Shown: in pieces, positions 40,683-63,473 of the stretch
Layout: each line of letters starts with the position of its first letter
How positions within the stretch are numbered: the first letter of the stretch is position 1
Notes under the pieces: model-generated
Told to the model about the DNA's origin: nothing
Databases searched by the model: none
The model's input: the letters and a program-made list of their open reading frames with translations, nothing else
Translations under genes and position numbers: made by a program
Origin: Gammaproteobacteria bacterium
GTDB taxonomy: Bacteria > Pseudomonadota > Gammaproteobacteria > GCA-001735895
Reading direction: 5' to 3'
Length of the DNA stretch: 64,000 nt
Assembly (NCBI GenBank): GCA_024225395.1
Contig: JAAEMR010000159.1
Location: forward strand, 64,811 to 128,810

Positions 40683-40737
40683 AACGAAACAGTCCACAAT
40701 CGAAGGGGGATTATACCCAAACATTTAGCCCAGGTTT

Positions 40738-41238
40738 TTAATTCAACCCTAAAGTCAGTTGATCCTGATCAGAGAAATGAAACTCTTCACAGTTTTCACC
40801 CACGCCATCTCTGTCCACACAGATAAAACTCATCTCAGCGAATGGTGTTAACAATAAGCCGTGCCAGGTACCGGGGTTATAGTTTATACCCTGTTCACCA
40901 TTGGTAATAAAAGCCTTTAATCGAGAAGCTTCAATCTTATCTCCGGGTTTTGCAACAACCACAATAAAAGGAGTCTTATCCAGGGGAATAAATGCCTGGC
41001 TACCCAGTGGATGGCGTTCCACAATCTTCACCTTCTGCGGCATATCATATTTTTTACTGTCTACCAGGCTGATCACCGGATAACCATCTTCCGTACCCGT
41101 GTCCACTTTAGCCAACGCATGATACCTGTCGGCCATGCCATAGTTGATTTCAAAGGATTGTTTACCTCTGGTTTCAATCACATCACCAAAGTCGGCAAAA
41201 GCCTCAGCGGTTAAAGGTCCAACGTTTAGGGTACTCAT
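40738..41238 (-). CDS. allA: ureidoglycolate lyase
   Basis: 166 residues, the usual AllA length. It splits (S)-ureidoglycolate into glyoxylate and urea, the last step of the ureide pathway here. Family motifs: LTAEAFADFGDVIE at the N-terminus, ERHPLGSQAFIPL, and YNPGTWHGLLLTP with the conserved His near the active site. The start overlaps the allantoicase stop by 4 bp. Confidence 0.94.
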   Translation of the reverse strand: MSTLNVGPLTAEAFADFGDVIETRGKQSFEINYGMADRYHALAKVDTGTEDGYPVISLVDSKKYDMPQKVKIVERHPLGSQAFIPLDKTPFIVVVAKPGDKIEASRLKAFITNGEQGINYNPGTWHGLLLTPFAEMSFICVDRDGVGENCEEFHFSDQDQLTLGLN

Positions 41239-42242: not shown

Positions 42243-42246
42243 TTTA

Positions 42247-44949: not shown

Positions 44950-46152
44950 TTAATTCTGATCCACGTTGGCACCCTGTGCAAACCAGCTGGCGATCAACTG
45001 TCGCTCTTCCACCGTCATGCGCGTTAAATTTCCAATCGGCATGTATTGATTGCCGACCGTTTGCGCAATCATCGGGGCATGTTGAGATATTTGTAAATTC
45101 TGTTTTAACACAATACCTTTGGGGGGTTGAACGAAACCCGGCTGCGTTGGTTGTTCGGCATGGCAGGTGATACAGCGTGCATCGATAATTGCTCTGACCT
45201 TAGAAAACTCGACTTTGGTACTTAAAGTTTCAACACCTGGTGCCTGTGGTTTTAGCCATACTATAACAGCGGATAGCAACGCTATTGCAACGACAGGTAA
45301 CCACCACTTAAACTGATGTAAGTGCCTCAAAACAAAAAATTGACGAATTAAAACTCCAGCCGTCATGATCAACGCTAATACCACCCACCCATATTCATGA
45401 CTATAAGTCATCGGGTAATGATTACTGATCATAACGAATAATACCGGCAGAGTGAAATAGGTATTGTGCACAGAACGCTGTTTACCCACACGACCATATT
45501 CCGGGTTGGGGGTTTGGCCGGCACGAATTTCCTGCACCATTTTTTTATGCCCGGGAATAATATGGAAAAACACATTGAAAACCATGATACTGCCCATAAT
45601 GGCACCTACATGAATATAGGCGGCTCTGGCACTAAATAGCTGGAACAGTAGCCAGTCACACAACAGGATATAGATAAATATCAATGCGGCCAGCAGGTTT
45701 TCATTAGCACTTAAAAAGCGACAAAGCGCATCATAAATTACCCAGCTAACCGCAATCACCAGTGCACTAACTGAAATAGCCTGAGTCGCTGACAATTGAA
45801 ACACATTCTGATCGATTAAATAGGTATTGGCACCAAACCAGTAAATGATGATCAGCATACCCATGCCGGATAACCAGGTGCTATAGGCTTCCCATTTTGA
45901 CCAGTGTAAATGTTCACTCAGTGGTTCACCGATCGGACCTGCCAGGAACTTTTGGCTTTGATAAACACCACCGCCATGCACCGCCCACAACTCACCGGAT
46001 ACACCACGATCTTCATCAGCTTTTTTAGCAGCCTTGCGTAGTGACATATCCAGCATCACGAAATAAAAGGATGCTCCTATCCACGCAACACCGGCTATCA
46101 AATGTATCCAGCGTACCAGTAAATTTGTCCAGTCGAGTAAATAGGTTTCCAT
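44950..46152 (-). CDS. puuD: membrane-bound urate hydroxylase with C-terminal cytochrome c
   Basis: 400 residues. The N-terminal urate hydroxylase part (about 1-290) has eight or so membrane segments with conserved histidines (RWIHLIAGVAWIGASFYF, HGGGVYQ, HIIPGHKK). The periplasmic C-terminal cytochrome c domain (about 315-400) has the haem site CITCH and the axial context QYMPIGN. In this enzyme type, urate is oxidised to 5-hydroxyisourate with electrons going to the respiratory chain and not to H2O2, unlike cofactor-free uricases. It is cotranscribed with the adenine deaminase and guaD genes (12 bp and 0 bp). Confidence 0.95.
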   Translation of the reverse strand: METYLLDWTNLLVRWIHLIAGVAWIGASFYFVMLDMSLRKAAKKADEDRGVSGELWAVHGGGVYQSQKFLAGPIGEPLSEHLHWSKWEAYSTWLSGMGMLIIIYWFGANTYLIDQNVFQLSATQAISVSALVIAVSWVIYDALCRFLSANENLLAALIFIYILLCDWLLFQLFSARAAYIHVGAIMGSIMVFNVFFHIIPGHKKMVQEIRAGQTPNPEYGRVGKQRSVHNTYFTLPVLFVMISNHYPMTYSHEYGWVVLALIMTAGVLIRQFFVLRHLHQFKWWLPVVAIALLSAVIVWLKPQAPGVETLSTKVEFSKVRAIIDARCITCHAEQPTQPGFVQPPKGIVLKQNLQISQHAPMIAQTVGNQYMPIGNLTRMTVEERQLIASWFAQGANVDQN

Positions 46153-46164
46153 GATTATCTTCGG

Positions 46165-47504
<1,340 letters not shown>

Positions 47505-48566
47505 TTACTTGGGAATACTTCCTTCAACACCTTCTACATACCAGTTGAGTCCAGAAAGATCTTTATCAGAAATCACTTCACCAGCCTTCACGACAAGCTC
47601 ACCTTTTTGATTTTTGATGGGACCCTGAAAGGGATGAAAGCTGCCATCAACGATAGATGCTTTTATCTTATCAGCCATGTCACGAACATCCTGTGGCACT
47701 GCATCGCCATAGGGTGCCATTTCAACCATACCCGATTTGATACCATCCCAGGTATCTGTTGATTTCCAGCTACCATCCATCGCCGCTTTAACACGATCAA
47801 TATAATAATCAGACCAGTTATCGATAATAGATGTTAGCTGAGATTTAGGCGCAAAAGCCGCCATGTCTGATGCCTGACCAAAAGCATACACACCGCGTTT
47901 TTCAGCAACCTGCAACGGAGCAGGAGAATCGGTGTGTTGAGTAATAATATCAACGCCCTGATCGATTAATGCTTTTGCTGCATCACCTTCTTTACCCGGA
48001 TCAAACCAGGAGTTCACCCACACTACTTTAACCGTTGCCTTCGGGTTCACCTTACGTAAAGCCAGTGTGAAAGCATCGATGCCGCGAATAACTTCTGGGA
48101 TCGGGAATGAACCAATATAACCCACCACATTTGATTTGGTCATTTTACCGGCAATTGCACCCAGAATAGCGCGGCCTTCATAGAAACGTGCTGAATAAGT
48201 ACTGACATTCGCCGCACGTTTATAACCTGTCGCATGTTCGAATTTAACTTTTTTAAATCGTTTTGCCACTTTAATAGTCGGATTCATATAACCAAAAGAA
48301 GTGGTAAAAATCACGTCATTTCCAGAACTCGCCAGCTTGCGAATAACTCGCTCAGCATCTGCACCTTCGGCTACAGATTCCACAAAAGTTGTTTTCACGC
48401 CTAATGCTCTCTCTACGGCCTGACGCCCCTGATCATGCTGATAAGACCAGCCATGGTCACCAACCGGTCCAACATAAACAAAACCGACTTTGGTTTCAGC
48501 AGCCGCAACGCCACTCAAGCCCAGGCTTGATGCGATTATTGACGATAATAGTATTTTTCTTAGCAT
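47505..48566 (-). CDS. BMP-family ABC transporter substrate-binding protein (purine uptake)
   Basis: 353 residues. A Sec signal peptide (about 1-22, cleaving after VAAAE or nearby) is followed by a BMP/Med-type periplasmic binding fold (KVGFVYVGPVGDHGWSYQHDQG, FTTSFGYMNP, GYIGSFPIPEVIRGIDAF). It belongs to the group that binds nucleosides or free purine bases for ABC uptake; GDHGW and the neighbouring purine genes favour bases or urate-like ligands. No lipobox is seen, so it is a soluble periplasmic protein. A strong AGGAAGGAG site precedes the start. It is separated from its permease genes by two unrelated-looking genes. Confidence 0.9.
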   Translation of the reverse strand: MLRKILLSSIIASSLGLSGVAAAETKVGFVYVGPVGDHGWSYQHDQGRQAVERALGVKTTFVESVAEGADAERVIRKLASSGNDVIFTTSFGYMNPTIKVAKRFKKVKFEHATGYKRAANVSTYSARFYEGRAILGAIAGKMTKSNVVGYIGSFPIPEVIRGIDAFTLALRKVNPKATVKVVWVNSWFDPGKEGDAAKALIDQGVDIITQHTDSPAPLQVAEKRGVYAFGQASDMAAFAPKSQLTSIIDNWSDYYIDRVKAAMDGSWKSTDTWDGIKSGMVEMAPYGDAVPQDVRDMADKIKASIVDGSFHPFQGPIKNQKGELVVKAGEVISDKDLSGLNWYVEGVEGSIPK

Positions 48567-48735
48567 TATTAGTTTCTCCTTCCTGATACAGGGGGATTGT
48601 AATTATTAATAAGGATTATCTCTTGCTCAGGATGCTAGCAGATTATCTGGTAGCGTCCAAATATTGAAAGCAGTTTTTCGGGTAATTGTTTAACCTAAGG
48701 ATATTATTTTACCGCGCTCTTGAACGACAAGTTCA

Positions 48736-50157
48736 TCAGGGAATATCAATCACCACAATGAAAGTCTCACCCCTGTATTCTAAGCGAATTTTAGCCGTGC
48801 CCGTATTTAACACCGTGAACACTTCCGTCGAAACGGTTTCTTCAATGACCTCGGGAACAGCCGTTGGGATAATGAAATAATCCAGATCGCTATCATCGGT
48901 GATATTCTCGCTACTGTCATTTGAAAAATTAGCAGTGACATCCAGGGTTATCGTATTCGGACGACTAGCCAGATTAAGAACTGTATTATCTGTTACTGCA
49001 ACATTATTGGCTCTGACATCGAATGAAAGAACACTCAGCAGGGACACATGGATTTCCTGTGAGGCCAGTTCACAATCAGAATTAATGTCACAACTGACCA
49101 GAGTATCCAGTAACACTCCCTGAGAGATATCATCAATCGTTTGCTCAATACCCCCGCAGGCCAGTGACACGGTAATATCAGAATCTTCAACATCACCGGT
49201 TATATCAAGTTGCTGCCTGTCATCCGAAAAAACACTGGAAGCATTAATTGAGTCAGCAATTCCCCACTTGCTATTTCTGCTGATATTTTCATTATAAGTT
49301 GAACCGTCCGCCGCCTGATAATTACCCACCGCGATTAAGGATATCACCTGATCTTTTTCTATTTCAGACTCATCTACAACACAATTGCCAAGATCGGTAT
49401 CAGTGCTATCGCATAACTTTATAGAATTTAAGCCATGATCAATCGTTTGATCAAAATCTGTCGATGTAACTTCCAAACCAGTTAAATGCGATAGCGCTTT
49501 TGCATTGATGACGATATTACCGGAAGCCAGGCTATGCAAAAATACTTCATCCTGTGAAGTCGTTTCTATAATAGCTCGCTGCGAATCACTACCGTCTTCC
49601 TCGTTAGTAATTAGCCACTCAATCTGATGAATAACTTTGCTATCAACAAGCCTGATTTCTTCATTACCATCCTCATCCTCATAGCGGCCAACAGGTTTGA
49701 TGGTTTGATACTGGCACATATTGATACTAAAACCCGCGTCATCCTCATCCAGCTTCACCACCTGATCAAACTTTGCTGATGAAACCCTGATATCAATAGA
49801 TTCGCTCAAAAATCCAAATTTTGCAGTCAGCGTAAGTGTTTCAGACGTATCAGCGGCCGTAAAAAGACCTTGCTGATTTATACTGCTGACAGCACCAGCA
49901 GAAAGTGACCATTCAACATCGCCATCAACGGTGACCGTATCGACACCGTTTGACTTCAGCCCCTGTAACCTATATTCAACTTCACTACTGATAGAAACGA
50001 CTGTTTCAGTCTCTTCCGGGAAACTGATAGAGATCACATCCTCACTGGCGACCGTATGTAACTCCACCAGGTGAGTTTCATTTTCTGCATCACTACAAGC
50101 CGCTATGAAAATAAATAGAGCTGCCAGCAAGATATTAGCCATAGCTTTAGAAGTCAT
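48736..50157 (-). CDS. predicted lipoprotein of unknown function, beta-rich repeats
   Basis: 473 residues. Lipoprotein signal with lipobox IAAC (Cys21). The mature part is acidic, rich in Asp, Ser, Thr and Val, and seems to be built of several immunoglobulin-like or Big-type beta domains (patterns such as GLFTAADTSETLTLTAKFG, DNTVLNLASRPNTITLDVTA, LNTGTAKIRLEY). A few cysteines (MCQYQ, LCDS, NCVV, ACGG, SCDINSDCELA) could form disulfides. I do not recognise a family. It overlaps the beta-barrel gene by 11 bp, so the two form a unit at the cell surface. Confidence 0.75.
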   Translation of the reverse strand: MTSKAMANILLAALFIFIAACSDAENETHLVELHTVASEDVISISFPEETETVVSISSEVEYRLQGLKSNGVDTVTVDGDVEWSLSAGAVSSINQQGLFTAADTSETLTLTAKFGFLSESIDIRVSSAKFDQVVKLDEDDAGFSINMCQYQTIKPVGRYEDEDGNEEIRLVDSKVIHQIEWLITNEEDGSDSQRAIIETTSQDEVFLHSLASGNIVINAKALSHLTGLEVTSTDFDQTIDHGLNSIKLCDSTDTDLGNCVVDESEIEKDQVISLIAVGNYQAADGSTYNENISRNSKWGIADSINASSVFSDDRQQLDITGDVEDSDITVSLACGGIEQTIDDISQGVLLDTLVSCDINSDCELASQEIHVSLLSVLSFDVRANNVAVTDNTVLNLASRPNTITLDVTANFSNDSSENITDDSDLDYFIIPTAVPEVIEETVSTEVFTVLNTGTAKIRLEYRGETFIVVIDIP

Positions 50158-50674
50158 AGTGAACCCCCAGGCTGAAGGCAGTTATATTCATCTCATCACC
50201 ATGATAAAGGCGAATCCAGTCCGCCGACATTTTGAGTTGTGGCATAGCGCTAAATGACTCTTCAAAACCAATTCCAAAACTCACTCCCTGAAAACTATCG
50301 CTGGAATCAGCAGTACCCGGATAAGACGAATCCACTTCAATCTGACTGGCACCCACAATAAGATGTAGCTGGATATCGCTATCAACGAAAGGCAAGTAAT
50401 GATAAAGCACTGAAACAGCAGACGGTACATCAACTGTGAGCTGATTTAACTCATCATCACTTACACTGGTCATAATGGCCAGTTCAAACTGGTGCATCGA
50501 TTTTACATAACCCACCCGCAAATCTAACATTTTCGGACGCGTTTCCCCGCCAGAGGTATCAATAGTAACCTGAGCAGGGGAGCCCTCTATGTAAAAATTA
50601 TCAGCACTCAAAGGCGAGCTAAATAGAAATAGCAGAAAAAGGTAATAAAAGTGTAATAAATATTTCATATTCAA
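50147..50674 (-). CDS. small outer-membrane beta-barrel protein
   Basis: 175 residues. Signal peptide (about 1-25, ending LSADN). The mature 150 residues alternate polar and hydrophobic positions in strands (LDLRVGYVKSMHQFELAIM, GVSFGIGFEES, MSADWIRLYHG) and end AFSLGVHYDF, with the terminal Phe that guides outer-membrane insertion. It is most like the eight-stranded OmpA/OprF-barrel or OmpW-size class. The function is unknown. It is coupled to the lipoprotein gene by an 11-bp overlap and sits between ABC permease and BMP genes. Confidence 0.75.
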   Translation of the reverse strand: MNMKYLLHFYYLFLLFLFSSPLSADNFYIEGSPAQVTIDTSGGETRPKMLDLRVGYVKSMHQFELAIMTSVSDDELNQLTVDVPSAVSVLYHYLPFVDSDIQLHLIVGASQIEVDSSYPGTADSSDSFQGVSFGIGFEESFSAMPQLKMSADWIRLYHGDEMNITAFSLGVHYDF

Positions 50675-50752
50675 CTATTGATTTTCAGGATCCGTAAAAA
50701 TCAAGTGTACTCTGTTTTGTTAACGAGAAAAAATTGCTAGTACATTTAGTCT

Positions 50753-51673
50753 CTAACGACTTGGATGAAAAGCCTTACCCAGACTGGCAGGTGAATTTAA
50801 CTTTATCCTGGCCTGATCACTGGAAATGATCACCAGTACCACCACGGTAGCCAGATAAGGTAGCATCGACATAACCTGTGAAGGGATACCTATTCCTAGC
50901 GCCTGCGCGTGTAGTTGCAAAATAGTAATGCCGCCAAATAGATATGCGCCTAGCAACACTCGACCCGGCCTCCAGGTAGCAAAGACAACCAGTGCTAATG
51001 CAATCCAGCCGCGCCCTGCCGTCATCTGCTCAACCCACAACGGAGAATAAGCTAATGATAAATATGCGCCACCAACACCAGCCATAGCACCTCCGAACAG
51101 GATGGCTAAAAAGCGGATTTTAATGACTGAATACCCCATTGCATGCGCGGCATCATGTGAATCACCCACCGCGCGTAAAATTAATCCGGCACGACTTCTA
51201 TATAAAAACCACATCACCGCAAAAACCATCAAGATAGATAGAAATACCAGGATATCGTGTTTGAACAATAATTCGCCCACAACCGGGATTGATGAAAGTA
51301 ATGGAATGGATATTATTGGCAACCCCTCATAAGCAATTCCAATCATGCTTTGACCGAGTAAAGCACTCAACCCGATACCGAAAATAGTCAGGGCTAATCC
51401 TGTCGGAACCTGGCTGGCATGAAATTGTAATACCAGCACTGCAAATATCGCCGACATCAAGGCACCTGCCATAAGGCTGGCCAGAATAGCCAGGGTTGCA
51501 CTGCCGGTATAGTGCACTGTGACAAAACCGATAATGGCACCCATTACCATCATGCCTTCTATACCCAGATTGAGTACACCAGACTTCTCCGTGACCAGTT
51601 CACCAAGTGCTGCAAATAATAAAGGTGTCGCAGCCGTAATGATGGTCAGTAACGCGGGGATTAAAATTTCCAT
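50753..51673 (-). CDS. ABC transporter permease, nucleoside/purine type (second)
   Basis: 306 residues with about nine membrane segments. It opens with TLLFAALGELVTEKSGVLNLGIEGMMVMGA, the signature of the BMP-associated permease in YufQ-type systems. The RAVGDSHDAAHAMGYSV stretch is the cytoplasmic EAA-like coupling loop. It shares one base with the preceding permease stop (TAATG). Together with the first permease and the ATPase it forms the membrane part of a purine ABC importer. Confidence 0.92.
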   Translation of the reverse strand: MEILIPALLTIITAATPLLFAALGELVTEKSGVLNLGIEGMMVMGAIIGFVTVHYTGSATLAILASLMAGALMSAIFAVLVLQFHASQVPTGLALTIFGIGLSALLGQSMIGIAYEGLPIISIPLLSSIPVVGELLFKHDILVFLSILMVFAVMWFLYRSRAGLILRAVGDSHDAAHAMGYSVIKIRFLAILFGGAMAGVGGAYLSLAYSPLWVEQMTAGRGWIALALVVFATWRPGRVLLGAYLFGGITILQLHAQALGIGIPSQVMSMLPYLATVVVLVIISSDQARIKLNSPASLGKAFHPSR

Positions 51674-52749
51674 TATGACGCCACCATCTGTTTATTATTA
51701 AAGCTAACTCGGTAATGAATTAACACATCACTGGCCAGCAGAAAAAAGAGTAAAAGCCCCTGGAACACACCGGTAACAGCCACCGGTAAATTCAAACTAA
51801 TTTGTGCTTCCTCTCCCCCCAGGTAAGTCAGTGCCAGTAACAGGGCCGCGAACAGAACCCCTACAGGATGCAGGCGCCCGACATAAGCAACAATGATTGC
51901 GGTAAACCCATAACCCGGAGAAATGGTCGGCAATAATTGACCAATTGGCCCGGACACTTCAATAACACCTGCCAGTCCTGCAATGCCACCGCTGAGTATC
52001 AGCGTAATCCAGATTATTTTTGAGCGACTGAACCCGGCGTGTTCACCAGCTGCAGGAGCATCGCCCATCACTTTAATCTGATAACCCAGTAAAGTTCTTG
52101 AAATTAGTACCCAGCCAACTACTACCACTATCAACGCTATTAAAAAGCCGATATGTAAACGTGATCCTTCAAACATCGTCGGCAATAATGCTGATTCACT
52201 GAACAGCCGTGACTCCGGAAAGTTGTAGCCTTCAGGATCTTTTAATGGGCCGTGCACCATCAAGTTTAAGAATAGACCGGCCACATAACTCAACATCAAA
52301 CTGGTGAGAATTTCATTCGCATTAAAGTGGGTGCGTAAAAAAGCAACTATTGACGCCCACATCATGCCGCCTGACACACCTGCTATCAATATCAGCGGAA
52401 TGATATAAAACCCTGTCTTTTCATAAAAAAATAATGCAACTGCACCACCACAAAGACCGCCCATGATAAGCTGCCCCTCAGCGCCAATATTCCATACTCC
52501 GGCTCGAAAACCCAATGACAATGCGACTCCGATTAAAATCAACGGCGATGCTTTGACCCCTAATTCAGTTAAGCCGTAAAACGTAGATACAGGTTCAATA
52601 AAAAAAGCATGTAAAGCCGCAGCAGGAGACACCCCCATGATCAGAAATAACAAGATTCCAGCAACCAATGTCAGGGCTAAGGCCAGCAAAGGCGACAGGT
52701 AAACCATGGCCCTGGATGGGGTTTGACGTTTAATCATACTAGGCAACAT
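51673..52749 (-). CDS. ABC transporter permease, nucleoside/purine type (first)
   Basis: 358 residues with about eight to ten membrane segments. Features of the YufP type: LTELGVKASPLILIGVALSLGF, FRAGVWNIGAEGQLIMGGL and the coupling loop KVMGDAPAAGEHAGFSR. It overlaps the ATPase gene by 11 bp and the second permease gene by 1 bp. A single-gene homologue pair of this kind always works as a heterodimer with the neighbouring permease. Confidence 0.92.
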   Translation of the reverse strand: MLPSMIKRQTPSRAMVYLSPLLALALTLVAGILLFLIMGVSPAAALHAFFIEPVSTFYGLTELGVKASPLILIGVALSLGFRAGVWNIGAEGQLIMGGLCGGAVALFFYEKTGFYIIPLILIAGVSGGMMWASIVAFLRTHFNANEILTSLMLSYVAGLFLNLMVHGPLKDPEGYNFPESRLFSESALLPTMFEGSRLHIGFLIALIVVVVGWVLISRTLLGYQIKVMGDAPAAGEHAGFSRSKIIWITLILSGGIAGLAGVIEVSGPIGQLLPTISPGYGFTAIIVAYVGRLHPVGVLFAALLLALTYLGGEEAQISLNLPVAVTGVFQGLLLFFLLASDVLIHYRVSFNNKQMVAS

Positions 52750-54277
52750 TCAACACACCCTCTTCAATACAGACTCCCGCCATTAACATGCCCACCTGCT
52801 CGATGGTAATATCACTGGTCGGATAAAACCGGGATAACTTACCGCCACAGATAGCGCCGATACGGTCAGAGATTTCCAGCAACTCATCCAGATCCTGTGA
52901 AATTACCAGCACTGCCGCACCTTTGGCCGCCAGTTCACGCAGCTCCAGTCGAATCGTTTGAGCCGCTCCTGCATCAACCCCCCAGGTAGGCTGAGCTACG
53001 ATTAACATATCCGGATCTTGCAGTAACTCTCTACCAATAATAAATTTTTGAAGATTTCCACCCGACAGGCTGACTGCCGGCACATCCGAGCTGGGCGTTT
53101 TTACCGAAAACTGCTGAATAATTTTATCTGCAAATAATGAGGTTTTTATTGAATCAATCAAACTATTTTTAATCAGACCCAGTCGTTTAAAAGCGGTTAA
53201 AAAAGAGTTTTCAGCCAGGTTCATGTCTGGAACAGCTCCATGCCCCAGACGTTTTTCCGGCACACTGGCAAGCCCGATCAGGCGACGTTCATTGGGTCCC
53301 ATACGACCGGCAGCCTGACCTTCAATTTCAATACTGGAAGCCTGGGCAGATCGCTGCTCACCATTCAATGCCGCCAGTAATTCATCCTGCCCGTTCCCGG
53401 CAACCCCTGAAATTCCAACCACCTCACCCGATCTTACTTCAAGGTTTATGCCCTGGAGCGCTATGCCAGTCTTATCCTTAGCGGGCAGATCCAGCCCATT
53501 CACTAACAGCCGAACCTCACCTAATTCTGCCTGTTTCGGATGCGCTATATTCTTTAGTTCTTTACCCATCATCATGGCGGCCAGTGACTGTGCTGATTCA
53601 TCTTCAACTTTAACGGAGTCTACTTTTCTACCTAAGCGCAAGATCGTGGCACCACTACACAATGCCTTGATTTCATTGAGCTTATGACTGATATACAAAA
53701 TCGCCATGCCTTCTTCTGACAGACGTTTTAATGTAATAAACAACTTCTCAACTTCCTGTGGCGTCAATACAGAAGTCGGCTCATCCATCACCAGTAATTT
53801 TGGTTTTTGTAACAGGCAACGAATAATTTCAATACGCTGACGTTCACCCACAGACAGGGTATAAACATGACGTTGAGGATCTAAAGGTAAACCATATCGA
53901 TGGGATAATTCGGTAATTTGCTGAGCCAGCTCATGCATATCATTATCATGATCCATCCCCAGAGAAATATTATCCACAACTGACAGTGAATCAAACAATG
54001 AAAAATGCTGAAATACCATCGCCACTCCCAGCTCCCGGGCATGTGCGGGAGTATTTACCTCAACGGGTATGCCATTAAAAAGAATGGAACCAGCATCAGG
54101 CTTTAAAATTCCGTAAATCATTTTGACCAGTGTTGACTTGCCCGCACCATTTTCACCCAGCAATGCATGCACTTCGCCGGGTTTGATTTGCAGGTCTACA
54201 TTATCTGTGGCTAATACACCGGGGAAAGCTTTGCTCATCCCTTTAAGTTCCAGCAAATAAGGCGAAGAAGTATTCAT
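52739..54277 (-). CDS. ABC transporter ATP-binding protein, tandem nucleotide-binding domains
   Basis: 512 residues with two ABC domains. The first has Walker A GENGAGKSTLVKM (near 41-53), signature SVGERQRIEIIR and Walker B LLVMDEPTSVLT. The second has a degenerate Walker A (SGVAGNGQDELL), signature LSGGNLQKFIIGREL and LIVAQPTWGVDAGA. This pattern is normal for RbsA/YufO-type nucleoside importers, where the second site hydrolyses ATP poorly. It overlaps xdhC by 4 bp and the permease by 11 bp. Confidence 0.94.
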   Translation of the reverse strand: MNTSSPYLLELKGMSKAFPGVLATDNVDLQIKPGEVHALLGENGAGKSTLVKMIYGILKPDAGSILFNGIPVEVNTPAHARELGVAMVFQHFSLFDSLSVVDNISLGMDHDNDMHELAQQITELSHRYGLPLDPQRHVYTLSVGERQRIEIIRCLLQKPKLLVMDEPTSVLTPQEVEKLFITLKRLSEEGMAILYISHKLNEIKALCSGATILRLGRKVDSVKVEDESAQSLAAMMMGKELKNIAHPKQAELGEVRLLVNGLDLPAKDKTGIALQGINLEVRSGEVVGISGVAGNGQDELLAALNGEQRSAQASSIEIEGQAAGRMGPNERRLIGLASVPEKRLGHGAVPDMNLAENSFLTAFKRLGLIKNSLIDSIKTSLFADKIIQQFSVKTPSSDVPAVSLSGGNLQKFIIGRELLQDPDMLIVAQPTWGVDAGAAQTIRLELRELAAKGAAVLVISQDLDELLEISDRIGAICGGKLSRFYPTSDITIEQVGMLMAGVCIEEGVLNVA

Positions 54278-55350
54278 AACTTTATATTCTCTTTATTAGT
54301 CTGCATGCAATAAAGCTGTAAACCTCTCTGCATTTTTTCATAACACTGAACCAGCTCGGCCGTGATCGCCAGTGCGATAGCTGCCGGTTGTTTCGAGTGG
54401 ATACCATTGATACCAACCGGACAGCTCATGCGAGACAACTGCGCCACATTAATACCACGTTGTGACAGTCGATGTTCAAATTTTTTGCGCTTGGTCAACG
54501 ACCCGATTAAACCAAAGTAACAATAATCATCTCTTCTCAGGATTGACTCTGCCAGATCCTGGTCCAGACTGTGATCATGCGTCATTACTAAAAAATAACT
54601 ACCCGCGGGTGCCTCATCAATAACAGATTGCGGGATATCAGTATTGATAGCGATCACATTAGCCGGTGTAATGTCCGGTAATTGGCCATCCCGCGTATCA
54701 ACCCAGTTGACCCGGCAGGGTAAGTCTTCCAGGTATTTGATTACGGCTTCACCGACATGACCGGCACCGAATAGATAAATATTAAAATCCGGCCCGCTGA
54801 CTGGATCAAATACATAGTCGTTATTCCCTACTCTTTTTACTGAAGTAACCTCAGAATTTGCCAGCATAGTTCTTGCTAGTTTAACCAAAGGTTTAACATC
54901 CTTATCAATGGCATCGGAACAATCAAAATGAACTGAATTTTCCGAAACAATGAAGCGGGGTAACTGAGTAGAGTTTTTCACTGGAATAACCTGAATAAAA
55001 TTCTGCTGCAATAGCATCAGCTGACTAGCATTTTTGACCCATTCAGACTTATTGCTAACCACTTCAAAAAACACCGTAACAATGCCGCCACAACATTGCC
55101 CCAGACTAGCACCCAGTGAAAACCTCTGCATATCACTAGACACATCCTGAGACAGCATATTTCGCGCAAGTTGAATGGCCTTGTATTCGAGATGCCCACC
55201 ACCAATGGTGTTGTTAACCTTATTTTCACTCACCAGCATTCTGGCACCCGGCTCTCTGGGTGTAGAACCTTTTACCGAAGCCACCGATACGATGACAACT
55301 TTATCTGTTGATTCCAGCATAGCCTGCAATTGTTGTAACCACTTAATCAT
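54274..55350 (-). CDS. xdhC: xanthine dehydrogenase accessory protein XdhC
   Basis: 358 residues. N-terminal XdhC/CoxI domain with VSVASVKGSTPREPGARM and IGGGHLEYKA. The C-terminal Rossmann domain has YLFGAGHVGEAVIKYLEDLPC and RDDYCYFGLIGSLTKRKKFE. XdhC binds the molybdenum cofactor, sees to its sulfuration and inserts it into XdhB. It is a bit longer than the common 270-340 residues, owing to an insertion at about 130-180. One base separates it from xdhB, and it overlaps the ABC ATPase gene by 4 bp. Confidence 0.92.
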   Translation of the reverse strand: MIKWLQQLQAMLESTDKVVIVSVASVKGSTPREPGARMLVSENKVNNTIGGGHLEYKAIQLARNMLSQDVSSDMQRFSLGASLGQCCGGIVTVFFEVVSNKSEWVKNASQLMLLQQNFIQVIPVKNSTQLPRFIVSENSVHFDCSDAIDKDVKPLVKLARTMLANSEVTSVKRVGNNDYVFDPVSGPDFNIYLFGAGHVGEAVIKYLEDLPCRVNWVDTRDGQLPDITPANVIAINTDIPQSVIDEAPAGSYFLVMTHDHSLDQDLAESILRRDDYCYFGLIGSLTKRKKFEHRLSQRGINVAQLSRMSCPVGINGIHSKQPAAIALAITAELVQCYEKMQRGLQLYCMQTNKENIKL

Positions 55351-55351
55351 T

Positions 55352-57646
55352 TTACGAGTTCAGGCAATAATCCACGGCATTCAAAATTTCTTCTGCTGTG
55401 GCCGGAGCATTTAGGGGTGGATGAATAGTATACTCGGCCACACTGGCGATGGCATCCCGAATGGCAAAAAAGGCAGAAAATCCAAGTAACAGCGGTGGTT
55501 CACCAACGGCCTTGGAACGCATAATAGAGTCTTTCACATTCTGGTTTTTAAATAGCTTTACATGAAACTCGGCCGGGCAATCGCTCACGGCGGGAATTTT
55601 GTAAGTCGACGGTGCATGAGTCAGCAATCGACCTTCATCATTCCACACCAGTTCCTCTGTGGTTAACCATCCCATACCCTGAATATAGCCACCTTCAATC
55701 TGTCCTAAATCGATAGCAGGATTAATTGAATTACCCGCATCATGTAACAGGTCTGCGCGCAATAATTTGAATTCTCCGGTTAAGGTATCTATCGCCACTT
55801 CAGACACCGATGCGCCGTAAGCATAATAATAAAACGGGCTACCAACGAGTTTTTCCTGATCCCAATGCAAACCGGGGGTTTTATAAAAACCATCAGACCA
55901 TAGCTGAACCCGAGCTTCATAAGCCATCTGGATCAGTTCATTAAATTGTATTACTTTTTCGCCAAGATGCACTTTATCATTAGCAAAAGAAATCAAACCT
56001 TTATCAATGGCATGCTTCTCTGCCAAAAATAAAATCAGTCGATTCTTAATTAGGCGAGCCGCATCCTGGGCTGCTTTTCCATTCAAATCTGATCCGGTCG
56101 ATGCTGCCGTCGCTGAAGTATTCGCTACTTTACTGGTATCTGTAGCAGTAGCTCTTACCCGTTTTGGATTTATACCCAGCTCAATTGCGACTACCTGCGC
56201 TACCTTGGTGTTTAAGCCCTGCCCCATTTCGGTACCACCATGATTCACCAGCACCGAACCATCCGTATAAATATGTACCAGTGCACCCGCCTGGTTGAAG
56301 TGAACGACATTGAATGAAATACCAAATTTTACCGGAGTTAATGCCAGGCCTTTTTTGATGACAGGCGAAGATTGATTAAACGCTTCTATTTTTTTACGTC
56401 GAGAACGATATTCACTCGATTTTTCCAGCTCAGCCACCAGTTCATTAATCACATTGTCTTCGACAGGCTGCCCATAGGGCGTGATATTGTTTTCGGTTTT
56501 GCCATAAAAATTCAATTTCCGTACATCAAGTGCATCCAGCCCGATACAGCGTGCAATATTGTCGATAATATATTCTGTTGCAAAAGCCCCCTGCGGGCCA
56601 CCAAAACCACGAAAAGCCGTGTTAGATTGAGTATTGGTTTTACAGCAATAGGCACCCAGGTCGACATGATCCAGGGTGTAGGCATTATCGACATGACATA
56701 AAGCCCGGGTCACCACAGGCCCCGACAAATCAGCCGAATAGCCGGAACCCACCAACATCTTTAACTGTAAAGATTTTATTTTTCCGTCATTATCAAAAGC
56801 GGCTTGATAGTCATAATCAAAATGGTGCCGTTTGCCGGTAATCAGCATGTCATCATCACGATCCAGCCGGCATTTCACCGGTCGATTTAATTTTTTGGCC
56901 GCCAGCGAAGCAATGCAACAGAAAATAGCCGACTGAGATTCCTTACCTCCAAAACCTCCGCCCATGCGACGCATTTCCACTATGACCTGATTTGCATCCA
57001 GTTGACAGGCTTGCGCAACGAGGTGCTGCATTTCAGTGGGATGCTGTGTTGAACACCATAAGTGCAAACAACCATCTTCTTTTGGAACGGCATAGGCAAT
57101 CTGCCCTTCCAGGTAAAAGTGCTCCTGCCCGCCAACTTTAAACTGACCTTCAAGTCGACAATCCGCTGCATCAAGCTGTCCACTAGCATCACCTTTTTTT
57201 AACATCATCGGTGGCAATACGTAAGATTTATTATTATCGGCCTGGTTCAGGTCAAAAACAGCATCCAGCTGCTGGTATATAACCTTAGCCTTTTTGACGG
57301 CTTTTCGAGCATTCAGAAAACTGTCAGCTATCACCGCAAATATCGGCTGACCAATATAACTCACTACTCCATCAGCCAGGATGGGATCATCATGAATAAT
57401 AGGGCCACAGTCATTAGACCCCGTAATATCTTCTGTGGTTAATAGCGAGATAAACCCGGGGGAAGCTTCAACAGCGGAAGTATCAATGGATATCACTTTT
57501 GCATGTGCTTTTTCACTGGTGAATAAGGCTATAAACAGCGTTCCTTCCAGCTGAGAGATATCATCGGCAAATGCCGCATCACCCGTCACATGTAAGTGAG
57601 CCGACTCATGAGGAATTGACTTATTGTTTGCAACCGACTCACTCAT
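55352..57646 (-). CDS. xdhB: xanthine dehydrogenase molybdenum-binding subunit
   Basis: 764 residues, close to the Rhodobacter capsulatus XdhB at 777. Molybdopterin-site motifs QEHFYLEGQ, GGGFGGKE, TAFRGFGGPQG, GTEMGQGLNTK, TAASTGSDLNG and the catalytic glutamate in VGEPPLLLG are all present. It oxidises hypoxanthine and xanthine to urate, passing electrons to the FeS/FAD subunit. It overlaps xdhA by 4 bp. Confidence 0.95.
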   Translation of the reverse strand: MSESVANNKSIPHESAHLHVTGDAAFADDISQLEGTLFIALFTSEKAHAKVISIDTSAVEASPGFISLLTTEDITGSNDCGPIIHDDPILADGVVSYIGQPIFAVIADSFLNARKAVKKAKVIYQQLDAVFDLNQADNNKSYVLPPMMLKKGDASGQLDAADCRLEGQFKVGGQEHFYLEGQIAYAVPKEDGCLHLWCSTQHPTEMQHLVAQACQLDANQVIVEMRRMGGGFGGKESQSAIFCCIASLAAKKLNRPVKCRLDRDDDMLITGKRHHFDYDYQAAFDNDGKIKSLQLKMLVGSGYSADLSGPVVTRALCHVDNAYTLDHVDLGAYCCKTNTQSNTAFRGFGGPQGAFATEYIIDNIARCIGLDALDVRKLNFYGKTENNITPYGQPVEDNVINELVAELEKSSEYRSRRKKIEAFNQSSPVIKKGLALTPVKFGISFNVVHFNQAGALVHIYTDGSVLVNHGGTEMGQGLNTKVAQVVAIELGINPKRVRATATDTSKVANTSATAASTGSDLNGKAAQDAARLIKNRLILFLAEKHAIDKGLISFANDKVHLGEKVIQFNELIQMAYEARVQLWSDGFYKTPGLHWDQEKLVGSPFYYYAYGASVSEVAIDTLTGEFKLLRADLLHDAGNSINPAIDLGQIEGGYIQGMGWLTTEELVWNDEGRLLTHAPSTYKIPAVSDCPAEFHVKLFKNQNVKDSIMRSKAVGEPPLLLGFSAFFAIRDAIASVAEYTIHPPLNAPATAEEILNAVDYCLNS

Positions 57647-59151
57647 GATGAGACACCCGCTAAATCAATGACTTGATCTGAATGCTCAGATTGAGATTCA
57701 AGGAAAAAACGGGTTATTAGATTTTGCGCAACTTTGAGACGGTAAGCCGAACTTGCCCTGACATCTGACAATGGAGAAAAGTCTTCATTTAATTTCTGTC
57801 GTGCTATTTCCACACTAGCTTCACTCCACTGCTTGCCCAGTAAAACCTGCTCGGTATTTTTCGCACGTACCGGGGTAGCAGCCATGCCACCGTAAGCAAT
57901 TCTAAGATGGTCAATAATGCCATTCTCATCCAGGCCAATAACAAATGCCGAGCAAACAGCAGAGATATCCTGGTCAAAACGTTTACTGACCTTATAACTG
58001 GCCAGCTGATAATGATTGTTATTTAAAGGTATGCGAATGGACTCAATAAATTCACCCGGCTGACAATCTTTTTGCTGATAACCCAGGTAAAACTGATCAA
58101 GTGCTATTTTTCGTTGTGACTTTCCTTTACGCAAGTTCAACTCAGAATTCAATGCAATCAATATAGGCATGGAGTCACCAATCGGTGAACCATTCGCCAC
58201 ATTACCCACCAGAGTGCCGGCATTGCGAATTGACATCGATGCAAAGCGACGAAATAAATCATTTAATTCAGGGTAATGCCTGACCAGTTCAGTAAATGCA
58301 TCTGACAATGAAACGCCTGCACCAATAATAATTTCACTGTCTGTGACTTCAATTTTCTTAAGTTCATTGACCTGTGACAGGGAAATAACTTCGGGTAAAT
58401 CACGTAACTGCTTATTGACCCACAAGCCGACATCGGTATTACCAGCGACTATAGTCGCACCAGGTTTTTGCTCTATTAGTTGAGCAAATTCATCAACAGC
58501 CAGTGGAGCAAAAAACTGTTTGCCCGAGTGTTGAAGGTAAAGTATTTTTTCAGGTCGAATGCTTTCCAGCAAATTGATTAAGCCTGACTCATACTCATCG
58601 ATGGGCGAAACATGTTCCTGAGCCGCTTGGGTTAACCAGTTATCAGGTCGCTCAATTTCAAACATTTGCGCAGCGGCTTCAATAATCGGCCGGTAGCCGG
58701 TGCAGCGACATAAATTACCCGACAGGGCATCATTGATCTGAGATCGATCAGGCCTGGCCGTGGTTTTGAAAAGTGCAAACAACGACATGACAAAACCTGA
58801 CGTGCAAAATCCACATTGCGAACCATGGCAGTCCACCATTGCCTGTTGCACAGGATGTAATTCAGCAGTTTGCAGAGATTCCACCGTAAACAACAGCTTT
58901 CCATGCAACATGGCAACAAATTGAATACAGGCATTTATGCTATGCAAGCGAATACGGCCATCGACAATTTCACCTACAACCACCGTGCAGGCACCACAAT
59001 CCCCTTCTGCACAACCTTCTTTCGTGCCACTTCGATAAAGTGTCTCCCGCAGGTATTGCAACAACGTCAGGCTGGGGTCGATATTCGAAATAGAAACTAC
59101 AGAGCCGTCCAGAATAAAGCGTATAACGCTTTCTGACTCCGCTACTGACAT
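57643..59151 (-). CDS. xdhA: xanthine dehydrogenase FeS/FAD subunit
   Basis: 502 residues. The N-terminal plant-type [2Fe-2S] site is GCAEGDCGACTVV. The second [2Fe-2S] domain has CGFCTSG and LCRCTGYRPI. The FAD domain (about 195-375) has ATIVAGNTDVG and NAGTLVGNVANGSPIGDSMP. The C-terminal CO-dehydrogenase-like domain completes it. Fused FeS and FAD domains in one chain with a separate Mo chain is the bacterial alpha2-beta2 XDH layout. The GGGGGAG-like site before the ATG and a 3-bp gap from the HIU hydrolase gene indicate cotranscription. Confidence 0.95.
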   Translation of the reverse strand: MSVAESESVIRFILDGSVVSISNIDPSLTLLQYLRETLYRSGTKEGCAEGDCGACTVVVGEIVDGRIRLHSINACIQFVAMLHGKLLFTVESLQTAELHPVQQAMVDCHGSQCGFCTSGFVMSLFALFKTTARPDRSQINDALSGNLCRCTGYRPIIEAAAQMFEIERPDNWLTQAAQEHVSPIDEYESGLINLLESIRPEKILYLQHSGKQFFAPLAVDEFAQLIEQKPGATIVAGNTDVGLWVNKQLRDLPEVISLSQVNELKKIEVTDSEIIIGAGVSLSDAFTELVRHYPELNDLFRRFASMSIRNAGTLVGNVANGSPIGDSMPILIALNSELNLRKGKSQRKIALDQFYLGYQQKDCQPGEFIESIRIPLNNNHYQLASYKVSKRFDQDISAVCSAFVIGLDENGIIDHLRIAYGGMAATPVRAKNTEQVLLGKQWSEASVEIARQKLNEDFSPLSDVRASSAYRLKVAQNLITRFFLESQSEHSDQVIDLAGVSS

Positions 59152-59154: not shown

Positions 59155-59505
59155 TTAACTCCCCCGGTAAGTGGAGTAACTCCAGGGTGAAACCAGCAGA
59201 GGAACATGATAGTGCTGAGAACTATCTGATATGCCAAATCGCAGAGCAACATCTTCTACAAATGGAGGATCTGGCAATTGTAAGCCTAAAGCGGAGAAAT
59301 AATCACCCGCATGGAATACCAGCTCAAAACGCCCCGTAATAAAATTATCACCCTCAAGCAAGGGGCTATCCAGCCGGCCATCATCATTAGTCACCGATTG
59401 TTTTACCAGAGACCGGCCATTATCGAGATTATATAATTCCACCCGAATTTTGCCGGCAGGTTTGCCATGCGCGGTATCCAGTACGTGCGTAGTTAAACGA
59501 CCCAT
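59155..59505 (-). CDS. 5-hydroxyisourate hydrolase (transthyretin-like)
   Basis: 116 residues from the ATG at 59505, chosen because GAGG lies 6 bases upstream and the family begins here (MGRLTTHVLDTAHGKPA). The C-terminal YRGS tetrapeptide marks HIU hydrolase and not transthyretin. The histidine of LTTHVLD, the PLLVSPWSYSTYRGS tail and the GRFELVFHAGDYF strand fit. It opens the ring of 5-hydroxyisourate made by PuuD. It is the first gene of the leftward xdh operon. Confidence 0.95.
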   Translation of the reverse strand: MGRLTTHVLDTAHGKPAGKIRVELYNLDNGRSLVKQSVTNDDGRLDSPLLEGDNFITGRFELVFHAGDYFSALGLQLPDPPFVEDVALRFGISDSSQHYHVPLLVSPWSYSTYRGS

Positions 59506-59596: not shown

Positions 59597-60526
59597 ATGA
59601 CAACAACTTACCCAAGAGACCTGGTTGGTTATGGCCAGCACCCACCTCATGCAAACTGGCCCGGTAATGCACGAATTGCAGTACAGTTTGTTTTAAATTA
59701 TGAAGAAGGCGCTGAAAGCTGCGTTTTGCATGACGATGACTGCTCTGAACGATTTTTGTCTGAAATCATTGGTGCTGAAGCCTACCCTGATCGCCACATG
59801 AGCATGGAGTCCATTTATGAATATGGTTCCAGAGCTGGTGCCTGGCGAATTCTTCGAGAGTTTGAAAAGCGTAATTTGCCTCTGACTATCTTTGCCGTTG
59901 CCATGGCTTTGCAACGTAATCCCGAGCTCACCCAACAGTTTCAAAAGCTTGGCCACGAAATTGCCTGTCATGGCTTACGCTGGATTCATTACCAGAACAT
60001 TGATATTTACACCGAACGAACACACATGCAACAGGCTGTTGAAATCCTTAAAAACTTAACCGGCTCAAACCCGTTAGGCTGGTACACAGGACGTGACAGC
60101 CCCAACACCAGGAGTCTGCTGGTTGAACACGGCGGTTTTTTATACGATTCCGATTACTACGGAGATGACCTGCCATTCTGGGATGAAGTCACATTGCCCG
60201 ACAAAGAGATAAAGCCTCATTTAGTCGTGCCTTACACTTTAGATACCAATGACATGCGCTTTGCCACAGCACAGGGATTTAATTCTGGCGATCAATTTTA
60301 TAGTTACCTGAAGGATAGTTTCGATGTGTTATACGCAGAAGGCGAAGAGTCACCAAAAATGCTATCGATAGGTTTACATTGTCGCATTTCCGGTCGTCCC
60401 GGTCGATTTGCAGCCCTACAACGTTTTCTTGATTATATTCAGTCGCATGGGCAGGTATGGATTTGCCAACGTGCCGATATCGCTAAACACTGGGTACAAC
60501 ATCATCCTTATCAGACCAGGGACTGA
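59597..60526 (+). CDS. puuE: allantoinase PuuE (polysaccharide deacetylase family)
   Basis: 309 residues. It opens with YPRDLVGYGQHPPHANWPG, the PuuE mark, and continues with QFVLNYEEGAE, YGSRAGAWRIL, GHEIACHGLRWIHYQ (metal-site histidines), GWYTGRDSPNTR, PYTLDTNDMRF and GLHCRISGRPGR. It hydrolyses (S)-allantoin to allantoate without the zinc-amidohydrolase fold of AllB. It is the first gene of the rightward operon. The ribosome site is weak. Confidence 0.95.
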   Translation: MTTTYPRDLVGYGQHPPHANWPGNARIAVQFVLNYEEGAESCVLHDDDCSERFLSEIIGAEAYPDRHMSMESIYEYGSRAGAWRILREFEKRNLPLTIFAVAMALQRNPELTQQFQKLGHEIACHGLRWIHYQNIDIYTERTHMQQAVEILKNLTGSNPLGWYTGRDSPNTRSLLVEHGGFLYDSDYYGDDLPFWDEVTLPDKEIKPHLVVPYTLDTNDMRFATAQGFNSGDQFYSYLKDSFDVLYAEGEESPKMLSIGLHCRISGRPGRFAALQRFLDYIQSHGQVWICQRADIAKHWVQHHPYQTRD

Positions 60527-60542: not shown

Positions 60543-61064
60543 ATGACAAATACTATTAGCCTGCAAAGTATCAATAATTTAAATCCGTCAGATTTTGTAT
60601 CAACACTCGGCTCAGTCTTTGAGCACTCCCCCTGGGTTGCCGAACAGGTTTACCCGCTTCGCCCTTTTGATTCCATCCAACAACTCCATCATCAGATGAA
60701 AGACATTGTTTACAGGGCTGATAAAGAACAGCGAAAACAACTGATTTGCAATCATCCCGAACTGGCTGGCCGGGAAGCTGAAGCAGGAAAACTAACCACC
60801 GACTCTAAAAAAGAACAGGCAGGAGCAGGCCTTAATAATTGCAGTGCAGAAGAATTAAAAAAGCTGCGCGACCTCAATCAGCAATACCTTAAAAAATTTG
60901 ACTTCCCATTTGTCATTGCCGTTAAACAATTAACCCGTTATGACATTCTTGAAGCTATTCAATCCCGCTTACAAAATTCAGCAGATATAGAGTTCAATAG
61001 CTGCATCAATGAAATTGCAAAAATTGCTGAATTTCGTCTTAACGAGTTGATCACAAATGACTGA
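60543..61064 (+). CDS. uraD: OHCU decarboxylase UraD
   Basis: 173 residues from the ATG at 60543, 16 bp after puuE. Family features: INNLNPSDFVSTLGSVFEHSPWVAEQ, NHPELAGR with the catalytic histidine, a Ser-Ala-Glu-Glu stretch, YLKKFDFPFVIAVK. It decarboxylates 2-oxo-4-hydroxy-4-carboxy-5-ureidoimidazoline to (S)-allantoin. The frame also extends back into puuE to 60408, which I reject. The 3' end overlaps the next gene by 8 bp. Confidence 0.94.
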   Translation: MTNTISLQSINNLNPSDFVSTLGSVFEHSPWVAEQVYPLRPFDSIQQLHHQMKDIVYRADKEQRKQLICNHPELAGREAEAGKLTTDSKKEQAGAGLNNCSAEELKKLRDLNQQYLKKFDFPFVIAVKQLTRYDILEAIQSRLQNSADIEFNSCINEIAKIAEFRLNELITND

Positions 61065-61821
61065 CAAAATTATTTCGCAATTACTCGAATCTTCTGCCGT
61101 TCATGATGAATGGATAAAACCTTTAACCAATGCATTGCTAACAGTCGATTCAGCATACCTGAAAAATTTATTTGAAGAGTCAAACTGGCTACCCGGTCCA
61201 GAAAAAATATTTGCCGCTTTTCAGCGAGATCTCAGCCATTGCGAGTACATACTGTTTGGAGAGTCACCATACCCCAGGGCTGAATCCGCCAATGGCATCG
61301 CCTTTTACGATGCAGCAGTCACCGATCTATGGTCTGAAACCGGGTTAAGCAAAGGCGTAAACAAAGCAACTTCTCTTAGAAACATCATGAAAACTGCCCT
61401 GCTAGCCGAAGGACTTATCGAAACACAGGCCGATGGAAAAATTCCTCAGTCGACAATAGCCAGGTTAAACAAGCAAAACTTAATTCAGAATATAGGCCAG
61501 TTTTTTCTGGCATTACGCCAGAAGGGTTTCCTGTTATTAAACGCGACGCCTGCTCTACATCCTGACCGTAAACCCTTAAAGGAAGCCCGATACTGGTCAG
61601 GTTTTGTCAACCAGTTACTCACTGAAATCCAGCAAGTTAGAAAAGACTTACCCACTCTTGTTCTGTGGGGTCAGATTGCCCAGCAGATAGACAGCATGCC
61701 GGCATCTTCGGCATTTCCAATAATACGTTGTGAACACCCATACAACATTTCATTCATTACAAATAAAACGATGCTACAGTTTTTCAAACAACTAAAACTA
61801 TTAAGCAGCAAAAATATATAA
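61057..61821 (+). CDS. uracil-DNA glycosylase-fold protein of unknown function in a purine operon
   Basis: 254 residues. It lines up along its length with family-1 uracil-DNA glycosylase (Ung). LPGPEKIFAAF matches YPPQKDVFNAF. YILFGESPYP (GESPYP at 68-73) matches the catalytic GQDPYH. GIAFYD matches GLAFSV, LLLNATPAL matches LLLNTVLTV, LVLWGQIAQQ matches FLLWGSHAQ, and HPYNIS matches HPSPLS. Ser70 replaces the catalytic Asp64 and Pro73 replaces His67. Pocket residues Tyr72, Phe83, Asn162 and His227 match Ung Tyr66, Phe77, Asn123 and His187. The DNA-intercalating loop is altered. It is coupled to uraD by an 8-bp overlap and followed by the purine permease. Repair activity is unlikely; a nucleobase or ureide function is plausible. 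Confidence 0.8.
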   Translation: MTDKIISQLLESSAVHDEWIKPLTNALLTVDSAYLKNLFEESNWLPGPEKIFAAFQRDLSHCEYILFGESPYPRAESANGIAFYDAAVTDLWSETGLSKGVNKATSLRNIMKTALLAEGLIETQADGKIPQSTIARLNKQNLIQNIGQFFLALRQKGFLLLNATPALHPDRKPLKEARYWSGFVNQLLTEIQQVRKDLPTLVLWGQIAQQIDSMPASSAFPIIRCEHPYNISFITNKTMLQFFKQLKLLSSKNI

Positions 61822-61849: not shown

Positions 61850-63166
61850 ATGACTCAACAAGTAACTGCCGAACAACTACGAAACCCGGAGTTCAAACCA
61901 CCTTTAGCTGTTGCCATTCCACTTGGCATTCAACATGTGCTGGCCATGTTTGTCAGCAACTTTACTCCGGCAATAATTATAGGTCTGGCCGCCGGATATA
62001 GTTTTGGCTCTCCTAACCTGGTTTACATGATTCAAATGGCCATGCTATTTTCAGGCATAGCCACATTAATGCAAACCATCAGCTTCGGCCCGGTGGGTGC
62101 TCGATTACCTATTATGCAAGGCACCAGCTTTGCTTTCATTCCAGTGATGATTCCCGCCGTTAAAACCGCAGGCATGGGCGCTCTATTTGGCGGCATCATC
62201 ATCGGTGGTGCCGTGCACTTTTGCCTGGGATTTTTTATTAATAAAATTCGCCACTGGTTACCTCCTCTGGTCACAGGGCTTATCGTTCTGACCATTGGCC
62301 TCACCCTGTTACCGGTCGGTATAAAATACGCAGCAGGCGGTGTCCCGCTAATGGGTAAACCAGAATTTGGAGCTCTATCACACTGGGGGCTGGCAATGGT
62401 TGTCATAGTCGTTACCCTGGGCATTAAATTTTTTACCAAAGGGTTATTCTCATCAGCCGGTATTTTAATCGGCCTGATCAGCGGCTATATCGTAGCGGTA
62501 TTTATGGGTATAGTTAATTTTGGTGGCATAGCCAAAGCTGGCTGGTTCATGATTCCAGAACCTTTTAAGTTCGGCGTCGAATTCGATTTAGCGACTGTTA
62601 TTGGCATCAGCCTAATGGCATTTGTCAGTGCTATCGAGACAGTTGGAGATATATCAGGTATTACAAAATCAGGAGCAAAACGAGAACCCAAAAACAGAGA
62701 GCTGAGTGGTGGTACATTTGCCGATGGCCTGGGTTCACTTCTTGCTGGCTTCTTTGGGGGGTTACCAAACACTTCCTTTAGTCAAAATGTAGGACTAATA
62801 TCCCTGACCGGAATGATGAGTCGGCATGTCGTTACTATCGGAGCCATCTTTTTAATAGTATGCGGCCTGATCCCTAAAGTAGGAGCCGTAGTAGCCTCAA
62901 TGCCGATAGCTGTTCTTGGAGGCGGTGTTATCATGATGTTTGGTATGGTCGCAGCCGCAGGCATCAATATTCTGGCGGATGTCACCTGGAATCGTCGTAA
63001 CATGGTCATTTTTGCCCTGTCACTTTCAATCGGCCTGGGTCTGCAGGCAGTACCAGAAGCACTGCAACATTTACCATCAACCCTAAAAGTGCTACTGAGC
63101 ACAGGTTTATTACCCGTTGCAATACTGTCCATCATCTTAAACCTGGTATTGCCTAAAGAAGAGTAG
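61850..63166 (+). CDS. NCS2-family xanthine/urate permease
   Basis: 438 residues, with about 12-14 membrane segments. It begins PPLAVAIPLGIQHVLAMFVSN. The nucleobase-ascorbate transporter signature reads NTSFSQNVGLISLTGMMSR, with FVSAIETVGD upstream; both carry the purine-binding residues. QNVG and the neighbourhood favour urate or xanthine over uracil. It is a proton-coupled importer. The sequence GGTGGAGCCACC just before the start can form a small stem around the ribosome site. It is probably the last gene of the puuE operon, with an imperfect stem (63192-63226) downstream that may end transcription. Confidence 0.92.
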   Translation: MTQQVTAEQLRNPEFKPPLAVAIPLGIQHVLAMFVSNFTPAIIIGLAAGYSFGSPNLVYMIQMAMLFSGIATLMQTISFGPVGARLPIMQGTSFAFIPVMIPAVKTAGMGALFGGIIIGGAVHFCLGFFINKIRHWLPPLVTGLIVLTIGLTLLPVGIKYAAGGVPLMGKPEFGALSHWGLAMVVIVVTLGIKFFTKGLFSSAGILIGLISGYIVAVFMGIVNFGGIAKAGWFMIPEPFKFGVEFDLATVIGISLMAFVSAIETVGDISGITKSGAKREPKNRELSGGTFADGLGSLLAGFFGGLPNTSFSQNVGLISLTGMMSRHVVTIGAIFLIVCGLIPKVGAVVASMPIAVLGGGVIMMFGMVAAAGINILADVTWNRRNMVIFALSLSIGLGLQAVPEALQHLPSTLKVLLSTGLLPVAILSIILNLVLPKEE

Positions 63167-63273: not shown

Positions 63274-63350
63274 GCGCTCGTAGCTCAGTTGGATAGAGTG
63301 TTGGCCTCCGAAGCCAAAGGTCGTGGGTTCGAATCCCGCCGAGCGCGCCA
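63274..63350 (+). tRNA. tRNA-Arg (anticodon CCG)
   Basis: 77 nt including an encoded CCA end. Acceptor GCGCTCG pairs with CGAGCGC. The D-arm contains AGCTCAGTTGGATAGAG, the anticodon stem TTGGC/GCCAA holds loop CTCCGAA (CCG, reading CGG), and the T-arm is GTGGGTTCGAATCCCGC. Complete cloverleaf. The discriminator base is G. Its 3' end is a likely attachment site for the element that follows. Confidence 0.95.
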
Positions 63351-63435: not shown

Positions 63436-63473
63436 CTGAAAAATTCAGGCTCTGAATAAAATCGAGGATGTTA

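Follow-up and report, generated by a model that had tools for sequence, protein, structure and literature searches.

The window analysed here, a stretch of 64,000 nucleotides of gammaproteobacterial DNA, contains a complete purine island with the capacity to import nucleosides and to degrade bases to glyoxylate and urea. A reverse-strand segment of this island (40128..54277, −) encodes a phosphoribosyltransferase, ureidoglycolate lyase, allantoicase, 8-oxoguanine deaminase, guanine deaminase, a PuuD-type urate oxidase, adenosine deaminase, and a Bmp nucleoside ABC transporter. Next to it lie the xanthine dehydrogenase genes xdhC, xdhB, and xdhA (54274..59151, −), which were read from the sequence and whose homologs were located in relatives. 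The gene of hydroxyisourate hydrolase (hiuH; 59155..59505, −) is divergent from a forward-strand group formed by puuE (allantoinase; 59597..60526, +), uraD (OHCU decarboxylase; 60543..61064, +), and a third gene, here termed UDGS (61057..61821, +). According to its ORF, profile matches, and fold, UDGS encodes a protein of 254 amino acids from the uracil-DNA glycosylase (UDG) superfamily, which is of the Nitratifractor salsuginis UNG (NsaUNG) type and has the motif 1 GESPYPR. The ATG start codon of UDGS lies within the last codons of uraD, confirming the 8-bp overlap in a purine-degradation locus that a first-pass annotation of this DNA had reported. Promoter counts in promoter and terminator scans were near background, and UDGS had no clear internal promoter. 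The purine permease described as its 3' neighbor is present in the window, where an NCS2 xanthine permease starts 3' of UDGS (61850..63166, +), but this gene is found downstream in only three genomes of the window's taxonomic family and is not a conserved partner of UDGS. The phosphoribosyltransferase at the island edge (40128–40724) matched hypoxanthine phosphoribosyltransferase weakly (46.8 bits vs. a cut-off of 150) and may be a different PRTase. Directly after the purine island, a tRNA-Arg(CCG) is followed by an 81-aa ORF resembling a truncated tyrosine-integrase N-terminus (63274–63713), an arrangement that likely represents a mobile-element integration site. A PADLOC search for defense systems gave no match.

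The Pfam search did not assign UDGS to any family, and its score against the canonical NCBIfam ung model TIGR00628 (47.8 bits) did not reach the cut-off of 185.75. The best solved relatives are 5X3G and 5X3H (E-value 1.7e-39; 7e-75 in a profile search), the UNG of N. salsuginis and its Y81G mutant, respectively; this enzyme was published as an "unconventional family 1 UDG" (FEBS J 2017, as cited in PMC10776899). An AlphaFold2 model of UDGS, calculated from a 48-row alignment from which one row derived from a plasmid record was left out, reached a pLDDT of 96.1 and a pTM of 0.92. It superimposes on 5X3G with a TM-score of 0.91 (1.8–1.9 Å, 33% identity), whereas the TM-scores to canonical Ungs are about 0.5–0.6. 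The predicted fold thus remains that of a UDG, and the family 1 layout initially proposed holds at this level, but the match is to one unconventional subfamily, with canonical ung models far below cut-off. The phylogenetic tree groups UDGS with N. salsuginis UNG in a single clade, separate from canonical Ung (support 99/97). Within this clade, N. salsuginis UNG sits on a long branch, so that the tree does not fix the order in which the Gln-Asp and Glu-Ser forms arose.

Besides fold, length, full-length homology, and the Tyr, Phe, Asn, and His of the base pocket, N. salsuginis UNG shares with UDGS the sequences PYPR, VNRATSLRN (VNKATSLRN in the window protein), and HPYN-x-(S/T)-FI. Since its own motifs read GQDPYPR and HPYNHTFI, PYPR and HPYN are traits of the subfamily, and at the sequence level only the exchange of Gln-Asp for Glu-Ser separates the two proteins within motif 1. 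Canonical family 1 Ung (TIGR00628) has the same pocket residues and overall topology, but GQDPYH with the catalytic Asp and HPSPLS where UDGS has GESPYP and HPYNIS; the His of motif 2 is retained. Family 4 UDGs (UDGa) and UdgX, whose motif 1 has the form GE[A/G/Q]P, resemble UDGS in having a doublet with Glu and without Asp, in the His of motif 2, and in the Asn of motif 3. They differ in having Gly instead of Tyr72 after the Pro, and UDGS lacks both KCRPP and the R-loop; neither the family 4 model TIGR00758 nor the UdgX models matched it. A direct homolog with 46% identity and the same GESPYPR motif is found in Legionella adelaidensis (WP_058461681.1); it differs from UDGS in being plasmid-borne and adjoining ubiG according to the annotation, and it carries the generic RefSeq name "uracil-DNA glycosylase family protein" without an assigned function. 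BdiUng of Bradyrhizobium was rejected as the closest relative, N. salsuginis UNG being the nearest one with a solved structure, and UdgX-like cross-linking was rejected because the R-loop signature is not seen in UDGS. A viral origin was rejected as well, as a scan of viral contigs yielded no relative and the phage matches were Ung-like proteins of 23–25% identity. UDG-like domains with GQNPYPR (Asn for Asp) were observed in proteins of a Streptomyces sp. Caat 7-52 plasmid (L133:1903-4524) and of Nonomuraea gerenzanensis (L132:2677-4455). In both, an annotated ADP-ribosyltransferase domain follows; the Streptomyces protein also has a region reading like a macro domain in front of the UDG-like one, making this an unusual three-domain fusion.

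Motif 1 of UDGS comprises G68-E69-S70-P71-Y72-P73-R74 (61258..61278, +), in which the doublet E69-S70 (61261–61266, +) takes the place of Gln-Asp. Both the sequence and the alignment of 48 homologs bear out that the catalytic Asp is replaced by Ser70, as had been recognized before, and that Tyr72, Phe83, Asn162, and His227 align to the pocket residues of Ung. Asn162 (61540..61542, +) corresponds to Asn123 of E. coli Ung, which reads uracil, and His227 in motif 2 (HPYNIS; 61735..61752, +) corresponds to Ung His187. Glu69 is found in 48/48 homologs, of which 46 have Ser and two have Gly at position 70; Pro71, Tyr72, Arg74, Phe83, Asn162, His227, and HPYN are likewise invariant. The swapped Glu-Ser/Glu-Gly doublet therefore appears fixed across the clade in place of Gln-Asp. 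The two members with GEGPYPR (L108:4960-5742 and L109:5027-5788) display a natural Glu-Gly doublet, as in family 4 UDGs, on a Tyr-containing family 1 frame. Motif 3 reads LLNATPxLHP, and residues specific to the window's taxonomic family adjoin Asn162 (NATPxLHPxRKP). Compared with a 79% identical ortholog from an independent MAG, UDGS has a dN of 0.13 and a dS of about 2 (dN/dS about 0.1) and is under purifying selection. The first-pass annotation had also read HPYNIS in place of HPSPLS as an altered DNA minor-groove loop. The sequence is correct, but no DNA loop has been lost specifically in UDGS, as HPYN is also present in N. salsuginis UNG.

In the sampled genomes, UDGS and Ung are mutually exclusive. 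In a sample of 369 genomes of the class, 24 contain UDGS and 106 an Ung above the cut-off, but none contains both, where about seven would be expected (Ung in 0/24 carriers vs. 106/345 non-carriers; Fisher p = 3e-4, counted on related genomes and uncorrected for phylogeny); many genomes have neither. Ung was also absent from all 41 genomes of the window's own family. In another family (f42), two genera have UDGS without Ung (genomes G081 and G221) and one has Ung without UDGS (G327). UDGS thus probably fills the Ung niche. A replacement of all uracil repair was considered and dropped, because the window genome also encodes a family 4 UDG, to which UDGS would be additional there, along with a DNA-deoxyinosine glycosylase. 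Another PF03167 protein is present in 26 of the 28 carriers examined, its identity as a family 4 UDG being confirmed for the window genome only, and no PF03167 protein was found in the remaining two (G367 and G228). Hence, uracil repair in most carriers does not obviously require UDGS.

The absence of the motif 1 Asp had previously been taken to suggest a base-binding protein rather than a glycosylase. This is not supported, as UDG families 4, 5, and 6 lack this residue and are active (PMC5387724), and Glu69 is invariant in the UDGS clade. The QD doublet of family 1 and the EG/EA doublet of family 4 co-evolve, and exchanging one for the other leaves activity within about fivefold; in the Thermus family 4 enzyme, the change of EG to QD costs only a factor of five, whereas altering one residue alone lowers activity by two to three orders of magnitude (PMC5387724). 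Moreover, in the GEQPG motif of UdgX, E52 activates the nucleophile or water (PMC10359453). In UDGS, the conserved Glu is followed by Ser or Gly, although the Pro is followed by Tyr and the water-positioning Asn of the family 4 motif 3 has no clear counterpart in the alignment. Given the similarity of E69-S/G70 to GE[A/G]P in family 4 UDGs, which are active, the missing Asp does not imply inactivity, and the paired change has the look that would be expected of a shift toward family 4-like chemistry. We therefore regard UDGS as a predicted DNA glycosylase that belongs to the N. salsuginis UNG subfamily and carries a family 4-like motif 1, and assign this reading a probability of roughly 0.6. 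In the proposed mechanism, Glu-Ser, or Glu-Gly in two members, would have replaced the Gln-Asp doublet as a whole. A deaminated base, most probably uracil, would be flipped out and recognized by Asn162, with Phe83 stacking against it and Tyr72 acting as the gate, and stabilization of the leaving base could come from His227 together with the Glu69 main chain. The water might be positioned or activated by Glu69 instead of an Asp at position 70, or the reaction might lack a general base and run slowly, as in family 4.

It appears rather unlikely that UDGS instead has a UDG fold that is vestigial or without catalytic activity and has been retained for binding DNA or bases, as a scaffold, sensor, or replication accessory. 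Such a role would be in line with the loss of the subfamily's catalytic Asp in every member of the clade and with the presence of a family 4 UDG in the window genome and of other PF03167 proteins in most carriers. Catalytically dead homologs, however, usually drift at pocket residues, whereas in UDGS the whole pocket including His227, Asn162, and Tyr72 is strictly conserved, together with a new, invariant Glu69, and its doublet has changed toward that of active family 4 enzymes.

The glycosylase reading gives no functional reason for the persistent linkage of UDGS to purine genes in the window's own family. There, UDGS is present in 35 of 41 genomes, and in 27 of these carriers uraD lies adjacent and immediately upstream (26 found in the neighborhood survey and one, G022, by coordinates). 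Both genes occur in 29 genomes, UDGS alone in six, uraD alone in one, and neither in five (p = 0.003); in at least one of the six genomes with UDGS but no detected uraD, the contig breaks off shortly upstream of UDGS. Neighbors other than uraD, named from their sequences, include xdhCBA with a FadR-type regulator, a nucleoside ABC transporter, guanine deaminase, and hpt/queCDE. In two genomes of the window's own genus, UDGS directly follows queE, a gene for a 7-deazaguanine precursor (L122:3505-6758, with queCDE; L123:2-1250). The recruitment to purine metabolism suggested by the first-pass annotation is thus borne out as a family-wide linkage, but it does not extend to 14 other gammaproteobacterial families, in which the homologs lie outside purine loci and adjoin, as read from sequence, ubiG, kdsB with a two-component system, RNase E, RNase PH, uvrC, or def-fmt. 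The uraD profile PF09349 had no match in 21/21 carrier genomes sampled from these families, and carriers outside the window's family mostly lack the ureide pathway. The expectation that homologs would be found beside purine genes therefore largely failed. The purine-operon position of UDGS is specific to one bacterial family, and since motifs 1 and 2 are unchanged in homologs outside purine loci and in genomes without uraD, a purine-specific function cannot explain the clade as a whole. A lineage-specific purine addition in the window's family is possible, but probably UDGS is co-transcribed with purine degradation there and is not a step of the pathway.

In such an addition, UDGS could act as a free purine nucleoside hydrolase feeding xanthine dehydrogenase, or as an enzyme or sensor for an oxidized purine or ureide, which we consider improbable despite the adjacency and co-occurrence with uraD and the frequent xdhCBA, transporter, guanine deaminase, or hpt/queCDE neighbors where uraD is not adjacent. 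No PF01156 nucleoside hydrolase was found in 41/41 genomes of the family, Ppnp is absent from 37 and present in four, and the sole PNP_UDP_1 protein of the window genome, which has no other recognized purine nucleoside phosphorylase, is a methylthioinosine phosphorylase; the island nonetheless imports nucleosides and deaminates adenosine. The family-specific changes next to Asn162 also speak for this reading. On the other hand, homologs in the 21 uraD-less genomes share the motifs, UDGS is kept in the six family members without detected uraD, the block loss of one locus can itself produce the observed co-occurrence, and the linkage to purine-degradation genes is limited to this one family. The specific scenario in which a UDG-fold enzyme of this family exchanged DNA for free purine nucleosides, or a related purine metabolite, as its substrate and fills the nucleoside-to-base step between import and xanthine dehydrogenase, appears very improbable. 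We know of no UDG-fold nucleoside hydrolase, and the gap could equally be filled by a phosphorylase of another family or by salvage at the nucleotide level. A literature search for UDGs connected with allantoin or purine catabolism found no link.

Tyrosine at the position of Tyr72 restricts the pocket of family 1 enzymes to uracil, and its conservation in UDGS, together with the dedicated DNA-deoxyinosine glycosylase of the window genome, leaves very little probability for a broad-specificity glycosylase removing deaminated purines (hypoxanthine and xanthine) from DNA, whose placement in the purine operon of the window's family would reflect damage rising with purine flux, although a review reports such activities among BdiUng-like enzymes and in certain UDG families (PMC8307549).

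Most likely, therefore, UDGS serves DNA repair and not purine metabolism, its place in a purine operon being incidental, the gene having presumably become fixed beside uraD in one gammaproteobacterial family; gene neighborhood within a single family should accordingly not be read as function. The motif 1 doublet (Gln-Asp or Glu-Gly/Ala) has been studied through laboratory swaps, whereas here a natural exchange to Glu-Ser or Glu-Gly appears to be fixed on a family 1-like frame. Members of the clade occur in at least 15 families of Gammaproteobacteria, and their carriers are without ordinary Ung. UDGS bears on whether a family 1 pocket stays functional once the Asp is lost, and on uracil repair in these bacteria.
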